Shown: positions 16,469 through 20,895 of the stretch, piece after piece
Position numbering within the stretch: position 1 is the first letter of the stretch
How the letters are laid out: every line of letters begins with the position of its first letter
DNA from: an uncultured Algibacter sp.
Lineage (GTDB): Bacteria > Bacteroidota > Bacteroidia > Flavobacteriales > Flavobacteriaceae
Assembly (NCBI GenBank): GCA_937936645.1
Contig: CALHCQ010000009.1
Coordinates: 1-39,299, forward strand
DNA length: 39,299 nucleotides
Direction: 5' to 3'
Notes under the pieces: generated by a model
Databases searched by the model: none
Seen by the model: only the letters and a program-made list of their open reading frames with translations
What the model was told of the DNA's origin: nothing
Program-made: the position numbers and the translations under genes

Positions 16469-18175
16469 TTAAATAACATCTAGATCGAATGTTTTTCTTA
16501 AAAGTTCTAAGTTAGGATTCTTTTCTTTTAATTTTTCAAACTTATCGGCTGTTGTATAGGCGTATTGCTTTTCTAAAACTTCGTTTATGGTAATAGAAAG
16601 AGATAAGTTGTAGTTACTTACCGATTTTCTTAAATAGTTCATTAAATCGTACTGCTGCCTTTCTAACTCTACTTTATTAGTTTCGTTTGGGTATACCAAA
16701 TGTAAAGTCGTGCCTTCTACACGAGGGGTATCCATAGATAAAATAGAGGCTAAGTTATGCTTACCTTGTTTTATAAGTAGGTCTGTAAACTTATGCCAAT
16801 GTGCTATTAAATCATCTGGCTCAAACTTTTCGGTGGGTAAGTTTTCTTCCTCGACCACAACATCCATTTGTTTAATGAGGTGTTCTTTTTTTGCACGTAT
16901 ACTACTTAAAGATAATCCAGAACGTCGCTTACCTTCTTGTTTTAAAACAATTTTTGGTGGCGATGTGTTAGCGTGCTGGTTATTAGTTTGTTTAGGTACA
17001 GGGGGTGTGCTTACATGAGTTGCTTTTTTTTCTGGTACATTAACAGGTATAGGTGTTATGCCCTTATTTTTAAAGTATGAAGCAGGTATTATGTAATGTT
17101 TGCTATTTTTTTTTTCTCCATCGAAAGTGATAGAGGCAAGTTGCATTAAACAAAGTTCGACTAAGAGTCGCTGGTTTTTACTGGTTTTGTATTTTAAATC
17201 GCAATTATTAGCAAGATTAATACCTTCTAGTAAAAAGGCCTGAGAGGCTGTTTTAGCTTGTTGTAAATATTTCTCTTTAGTTTGTTCGCCAACTTCTAGT
17301 AAATCTATAGTTTGAGGTGTTTTACTAACTAATAAGTCTCTAAAATGCGAAGCAAGACCAGCTATGAAATGCTGACCATCAAACCCTTTAGATAAGGTAT
17401 TGTTAAATTGTATTAATAATTCTGGTATTTTATTTTGAATAATTAAGTCTGTACTTGTAAAAAAGGTATCGTAATCTAGTACGTTTAAATTTTCTGTAAC
17501 GGCTTGTCTTGTTAGGTTTTTTCCAGAGAAGCTTACTACTCTATCAAAAATAGATAAAGCATCTCGCATGGCACCGTCTGCCTTTTGTGCTATAATGTGT
17601 AGTGCATCATCATCTGCAGTTACACCTTGTTCGTTTGCTATATATTTTAGGTACTCTTTGGCATCTTTAACCGTGATGCGTTTAAAATCGAAAATTTGAC
17701 AACGCGATAAAATAGTTGGTATAATTTTATGCTTTTCTGTAGTAGCCAATATAAATATACAGTGCTTTGGGGGCTCTTCTAGTGTTTTTAAGAAGGCATT
17801 AAAGGCTGCTTGAGATAACATATGCACCTCATCTATTATATAGACTTTGTATTTTCCTATTTGTGGAGGTATTCTAACCTGGTCTGTTAGGTTTCTTATA
17901 TCATCTACAGAGTTGTTAGAAGCAGCATCAAGTTCGAAAATATTAAACGCAAAGTCTTCATCTTCACTTACCTCGTTCTCGCTATTTATCATTTTTGATA
18001 AAATACGCGCACAGGTTGTTTTACCAACACCACGTGGTCCTGTAAATAATAAAGCTTGCGCTAGGTGGTTGTTTTCTATAGCATTAAGTAACGTATTGGT
18101 AATAGCCTGTTGGCCTACAACATCTTTAAATGTTTGAGGTCTATATTTTCTGGCCGATACTACAAAATGTTCCAA
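16469..18175 (-). CDS. dnaX: DNA polymerase III subunit gamma/tau
   Basis: 568 aa; SARKYRPQTFKDVVGQ, FTGPRGVGKTTCARIL, LDAASNNSVDDIRNL, YIIDEVHMLSQAAFNAFLKTLEEPP. Start codon reads TTG (an in-frame stop lies upstream with no ATG). Confidence 0.96.
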   Translation of the reverse strand: MEHFVVSARKYRPQTFKDVVGQQAITNTLLNAIENNHLAQALLFTGPRGVGKTTCARILSKMINSENEVSEDEDFAFNIFELDAASNNSVDDIRNLTDQVRIPPQIGKYKVYIIDEVHMLSQAAFNAFLKTLEEPPKHCIFILATTEKHKIIPTILSRCQIFDFKRITVKDAKEYLKYIANEQGVTADDDALHIIAQKADGAMRDALSIFDRVVSFSGKNLTRQAVTENLNVLDYDTFFTSTDLIIQNKIPELLIQFNNTLSKGFDGQHFIAGLASHFRDLLVSKTPQTIDLLEVGEQTKEKYLQQAKTASQAFLLEGINLANNCDLKYKTSKNQRLLVELCLMQLASITFDGEKKNSKHYIIPASYFKNKGITPIPVNVPEKKATHVSTPPVPKQTNNQHANTSPPKIVLKQEGKRRSGLSLSSIRAKKEHLIKQMDVVVEEENLPTEKFEPDDLIAHWHKFTDLLIKQGKHNLASILSMDTPRVEGTTLHLVYPNETNKVELERQQYDLMNYLRKSVSNYNLSLSITINEVLEKQYAYTTADKFEKLKEKNPNLELLRKTFDLDVI

Positions 18176-20818: not shown

Positions 20819-20895
20819 AATATACTAAATTTTGTTATAATTTTTATTTAAAGGTCTTTCGCAAATCTACAATTTTTTTTTAACCACAAAAACCA

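Follow-up and report, generated by a model that had tools for sequence, protein, structure and literature searches.

The closest described parallels to the locus reported here come from dnaX itself and from transposons. In Escherichia coli, dnaX expression by -1 programmed ribosomal frameshifting is established (PMC5009743, PMC1088944). For the dnaX gene of Thermus thermophilus, transcriptional slippage on a run of nine A's (A9) is established (Larsen et al. 2000, as described in PMC5009743 and PMC1088944). Antonov et al. (2013) listed 17 dnaX genes split over two open reading frames (ORFs) in 12 genera, nine of them with A10, and proposed realignment (PMC3711429); the species set of that paper may include Bacteroidetes. 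Slippage in dnaX is already known, both from Thermus and from these two-ORF genes. In the IS630 transposase of Roseiflexus a stem loop stands directly 5' of the slippage site (Penno et al. 2015, as described in PMC5009743), and IS1447 has an A9 behind a stem loop that slips about equally in both directions (PMC6211511). The RNA-DNA hybrid within RNA polymerase is 9-10 bp long (PMC5009743), and the ribosomes of Bacteroidia do not recognize Shine-Dalgarno sequences (PMC9976891).

The window analyzed here is a stretch of 39,299 nucleotides from an uncultured Algibacter species of the Flavobacteriaceae. It carries dnaX, whose frame opens with TTG and encodes 568 residues beginning MEHFVVSARKYRPQTF; the full frame corresponds to tau (ORF listing). 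The product scored 380.8 bits against the curated profile TIGR02397 (dnaX_nterm), the cut-off being 250. It matched the Pfam families DNA_pol3_delta2 and DNAX_ATPase_lid, and DNA_pol3_gamma3 below threshold; its PDB matches were to the E. coli gamma/tau subunit. The features of the locus are as follows.

16469-18175, minus strand: dnaX, DNA polymerase III clamp-loader subunit gamma/tau (ORF, profile and PDB matches)
17116-17135, minus strand: hairpin abutting the run with no spacer (folding, synonymous null, covariation)
17106-17115, minus strand: A10, putative slippery run, codons GAA AAA AAA AAn (sequence and conservation)
17103-17105, minus strand: stop TAG, reached when one A is inserted or the ribosome shifts by -1, giving 357 residues (sequence and conservation)
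17089-17091, minus strand: stop TAA, reached when one A is lost or two are gained, giving 361 residues (in a conserved Ile codon, ATA)
16472-17088, minus strand: tau-specific linker and C-terminal domain, missing from the predicted short form (domain search and comparison)

The minus strand reads GGA GAA AAA AAA AAT AGC AAA CAT TAC ATA ATA at the run, with exactly ten A's from 17115 to 17106, which bears out the position within dnaX given by an initial annotation. The A10 starts within the Glu354 codon, a few residues past the clamp-loader part of the protein (AAA+, lid and domain III). The domain III match (DNA_pol3_gamma3) ends at residue 343 of P0001, a copy of the dnaX protein that begins five residues inside the full protein (whole-protein numbering is higher by five), in agreement with the proposal that the alternative frames end just past the AAA+/collar part. 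The predicted short products likewise agree in coordinates and length with those first annotated: one added A gives ...GEKKK and then TAG, and one lost A gives ...GEKKIANIT and then TAA. In a homopolymer scan of the 39,299 nucleotides this was the sole A10. The second-longest homopolymer, T9 at 20873-20881, lies between ORFs, and the remark that no other coding homopolymer in the window is so long holds. In the genome assembly (2.0 Mb; 67% AT in the window) runs of A10 or longer number about 20, and three of them, dnaX included, lie deep in the sense strand of ORFs of at least 100 residues. In the same genome, A10 is found at codon 157 of 213 in a gene for an RNase H-like protein (L324) and at codon 66 of 326 in a gene for a tetratricopeptide-like protein (L320), both named by eye from their translations. 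The annotation had also pointed to a second run in dnaX, A8 at 17024-17031, as a candidate slippage site. This run exists; close relatives read AAGAAAGAA, AAACCTAAAG and similar there, and because the A8 is not conserved in them it is not part of the feature.

The comparison with Thermus is the closest in several respects. In both genes the sense strand holds nine or more A's in a row, tau is in the genomic frame and both other frames meet a stop close by; in both, too, the short form is devoid of the tau part, the flavobacterial one being predicted from sequence. The run is A9 in Thermus, seven-eighths along the gene, whereas here it is A10 and stands directly behind domain III; further differences are the conserved hairpin abutting the run on its 5' side in the flavobacterial family and a genomic frame of tau that shifts among relatives. 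With the genes of Antonov et al. the locus shares an A10 in dnaX, and their state is that of the two-ORF relatives described below (Flavobacterium, Chryseobacterium and others). In contrast to those genes, the window holds tau in the genomic frame; the single-ORF state, the class-wide spread, the selection on stops in both frames and the hairpin do not figure in the main text of that paper. The hairpin directly 5' of the run, with zero spacer, has the terminator-like geometry of the stem loops in IS630 and IS1447, the latter also preceding an A-run. Those elements are transposons, whereas here the gene is a conserved replication gene and an effect of the hairpin on slippage is suggested by its conservation. 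E. coli dnaX is the same gene with the same product pair and an A-rich site. However, the site in the window, GAA AAA AAA AAT, has no A_AAA_AAG heptamer, no 3' stem loop and probably no usable Shine-Dalgarno stimulator; both frames are closed, and the site lies right after domain III. A literature search, with most subscription journals outside its scope, returned no account of flavobacterial dnaX as a single ORF, nor of the spread through the class, the selection on stops in both frames or the hairpin.

The dnaX genes compared came from a family search over 250 genomes, supplemented with named Bacteroidota and a phylum-wide search. Nucleotide comparison revealed a run of at least nine A's at the same place in all 166 family genes: A10 in 152 of them, A11 in nine, A13 in two, A12 in one and A9 in two. 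Of the other Bacteroidia, 77 of 89 had a run of at least A9, as did 16 of 41 members of other classes. Breaks by synonymous AAG codons, which the initial annotation had named as evidence against its reading, were seen in none of the 166. Given the codon usage of each gene, the run would be expected to escape an AAG or GAG break in about 60 of 130 genes; elsewhere in these genes, AAAAAA encodes 308 of 593 Lys-Lys pairs. The run begins in varied codon phases (GAA AAA..., GAT AAA..., GCT AAA..., GGT AAA...) and its length is constant at ten; because length ten is kept across codon phases, the nucleotide run, rather than the peptide, is under selection. By these comparisons the A10 is no accident of codon choice. 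The long A-run is absent from dnaX of several Bacteroidales (Bacteroidaceae and Prevotellaceae) and of a few other Bacteroidia. The run-less dnaX loci are L164, L173, L175, L177, L180, L182, L186, L195, L249 and L250.

The surroundings of the run bear a similar mark. In the window TAG and TAA both fall within 17 nucleotides of the run. The family search yielded 130 genes, 126 of them with tau in the genomic frame, and the stop counts refer to these 126. Both other frames are closed in every one, within seven codons from the start of the run in the insertion frame and within ten in the deletion frame. Synonymous resampling of the downstream codons closes both frames in 20.6 of the 126, and at random sites in the same genes both are closed (within 4 and 7 codons) in 17%. 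For the Ile codon that holds the stop of the deletion frame, 107 of 108 genes use ATA, a triplet that makes up 26% of Ile codons gene-wide. The stop triplets themselves turn over (TAG, TAA and TGA; TTAG, CTAG or GTAG replacing a lost ATAA) and closure is retained. Although related genes are non-independent trials, an effect this large, combined with the turnover, is unlikely to stem from drift. As judged by the comparison, the out-of-frame stops are maintained by selection in both frames.

Two alternatives touch on these observations. The slippage could be incidental: something else, such as the Lys-Lys peptide or the hairpin, would keep the run, and the stops would merely limit the damage from errors. 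On general grounds, selection can favor stops close to slippery sites as a curb on waste. Yet AAG would cure the slippage without cost to the protein and is never seen, and relatives with tau out of frame rely on a shift; we regard this explanation as very improbable. The second alternative is -1 programmed ribosomal frameshifting as in E. coli dnaX, in which ribosomes would slip on A_AAA_AAA or A_AAA_AAT and meet the TAG stop to give gamma, and would produce tau in the two-ORF relatives. A-rich heptamers are indeed contained within the run, and the insertion-frame stop is the same as the -1-frame stop. However, A10 is kept though A7 would be enough and a final AAG helpful, and a -1 ribosomal shift needs just one stop; selection on both stops thus counts for transcriptional slippage.

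The hairpin directly 5' of the run, like the class-wide extent, goes beyond the initial annotation. In the window its arms are 17135-17129 (CUCUAUC) and 17122-17116 (GAUGGAG), forming 7 bp with a 6-nucleotide loop, and the folding energy with flanks is -8.7 kcal/mol (z -4.1). The majority of the family has 8 bp and a 4-nucleotide loop, CUCUAUCA-CUUU-UGAUGGAG, with zero spacing to the first A. The mean energy of the hairpin is -7.6 kcal/mol; when the peptide is held constant and its codons are resampled synonymously the value is -3.2, and elsewhere in the gene it is -2.0. In 103 of 130 genes the hairpin has p<=0.05 against the synonymous null. Across 82 distinct sequences the fraction of paired positions is 0.74; the maximum in 1000 shuffles was 0.70, and slid versions gave 0.35-0.49. 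Pairs are also replaced on both sides: A-U to G-C (CUCUGUCA...UGACGGAG in L102 and L107, UGGCGGAG in L039), A-U to C-G (L046) and C-G to U-A (L097). At the pair -16/-5, A-U is replaced by G-C and by C-G, on both sides. In some family members, L073, L125, L139 and L151 among them, the hairpin is weak or absent, and as a class-wide feature it was rejected, there being no clear excess outside the family. Because of these weak or absent cases and the lack of clear enrichment outside the family, the run must be able to work without the hairpin.

A different hairpin of about -14 to -16 kcal/mol stands directly before a retained A10 in the GC-rich Hymenobacter and Rufibacter (L201, L206 and L208) and in L259, possibly of independent origin. 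We also considered the hairpin and run as a transcription terminator and rejected this; neither strand fits, because in the sense RNA A's follow the hairpin and on the opposite strand T10 precedes it. On the 3' side no structure was found: the 50 nucleotides downstream fold at -4.7 kcal/mol, compared to -6.3 in gene controls (rank 0.65). A search for a Shine-Dalgarno-like stimulator returned GGAG, present directly at the run as an arm of the hairpin and replaced in some relatives. The missing 3' stem loop and the ineffectiveness of Shine-Dalgarno stimulators in Bacteroidia (PMC9976891) both speak against the ribosomal frameshift.

The window's dnaX is not split and holds tau in frame 0, but among relatives tau is found in frame 0, +1 or -1/+2. 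The genomic frame of 22 of the 166 family genes stops just behind the run, at 352-357 residues, and a different frame encodes the tau part. The same two-ORF state occurs in 25 genes of other Bacteroidia, for a total of about 47 relatives. It is shared by all sampled named Flavobacterium genes (L142-L146), by Halpernia (L169) and by Chryseobacterium lathyri (L184). On a tree built from the clamp-loader part, the gene switched between one ORF and two at least 21 times, 8 of them in the family. The displaced tau part is homologous to its end in two-ORF genes, and its identity by codon position is 0.71/0.77/0.48 in the Flavobacterium-type genes, compared to 0.75/0.82/0.52 in one-ORF genes; by this pattern the displaced part evolves as protein, under purifying selection. 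A homopolymer sequencing error may account for L144 and possibly L031, but not for the whole genus Flavobacterium. An intact tau in another genomic frame in many relatives is hard to explain without slippage, and the simplest reading is that slippage would yield both products whichever frame the genome holds. Comparison across relatives shows that selection maintains the run, the stops, the hairpin and the moving frame.

Phase variation, by which changes in the genomic length of the run would toggle tau within a population, is also suggested by a homopolymer whose genomic frame varies between species. Such toggling would hit the tau part of an essential gene, however, and tau is free of decay; 152 of the 166 family runs are exactly A10 irrespective of the frame of tau, and the sampled Flavobacterium share one arrangement. 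We find this scarcely credible. The two-ORF relatives bear on the ribosomal frameshift as well. In most of them one extra A restores tau, a direction that a -1 ribosomal shift could also supply; rarely the requirement is -1. L144, L174, L196 and L216 need one A fewer or two more. In L196, 41 codons are open in the +1 frame and more than 128 in the -1 frame, and the bases by which L216 differs from its congener lie outside the run. Since L216, L174 and L196 need -1/+2, they are beyond the reach of a -1 ribosomal shift. In the genomes checked, tRNA-Lys(UUU) is apparently the sole tRNA-Lys, so ribosomal slippage on lysine codons would be possible. A second tRNA-Lys (CUU) was pursued as a clue to mechanism and dropped: the pattern matches were scattered, with no consistent gene, and one that was checked was not a tRNA. 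Transcription is favored over the -1 ribosomal shift because both stops are selected, the length is ten, -1/+2 cases exist, 3' structure is missing and Shine-Dalgarno sequences are not used; as a full explanation, ribosomal frameshifting seems improbable to us.

We consider it likely, then, that the A10 serves for programmed transcriptional slippage (realignment), by which one gene gives long tau and a short gamma-like DnaX, and the slippage interpretation of the initial annotation is supported by the comparative evidence. RNA polymerase would copy the template T10, at which point the 9-10-bp RNA-DNA hybrid would be wholly rA:dT and could pair again with a displacement of one or more positions, so that dnaX mRNAs would gain or lose A's. 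The hairpin in the nascent RNA, ending where the run begins, would form at the RNA exit while the hybrid covers the run; it may loosen the hybrid as at an intrinsic terminator and so raise or bias slippage. Messages with 10 (or 10+3n) A's would give tau, and other run lengths would lead to a stop within a few codons and a gamma-like DnaX ending just past domain III of the clamp loader. From the conserved patterns we infer that slippage occurs, at what rate and in which direction, as well as the role of the hairpin and the joining of the clamp loader by the short form. A combined mechanism, in which RNA-polymerase slippage and ribosome sliding on the lysine codons of poly(A) together set the tau:gamma ratio, is permitted by the sequence, and ribosomes are known to slide on repeated AAA codons (PMC4363877). 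Nothing in the alignment specifically calls for the ribosomal part, however, and we hold joint control to be rather unlikely, though some sliding on AAA codons may add to transcriptional slippage.

For the class as a whole we lean slightly towards a broader proposal: across Bacteroidia, RNA-polymerase slippage at the A10 would set the tau:gamma balance, and in Flavobacteriaceae a terminator-like nascent hairpin, followed by A's in place of U's, would drive it. If true, the textbook pair of dnaX mechanisms, ribosomal in E. coli and transcriptional in Thermus, would extend to most of a major bacterial class, and a conserved housekeeping gene would hold a hairpin-stimulated slippage element efficient enough to have allowed about twenty frame drifts of an essential protein. 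The repeated frame changes are a natural experiment on slippage efficiency, and the hairpin is a natural, evolutionarily tuned element for the study of how nascent RNA steers polymerase in pausing, slippage and termination. On the practical side, two-ORF dnaX genes are easily taken for pseudogenes or sequencing errors. The finding also points to the importance of a short, gamma-like DnaX in Bacteroidia; we know of no study of its role there.

One further difference lies upstream in the gene. DnaX of the E. coli type has a zinc-binding Cys cluster, CxxCxxC, behind the P-loop (the corresponding region of the window is 17950-18000). By simple pattern match this cluster is missing in all 166 family genes (L001-L151 and L214-L229) and is found in 71 of 89 other Bacteroidia.
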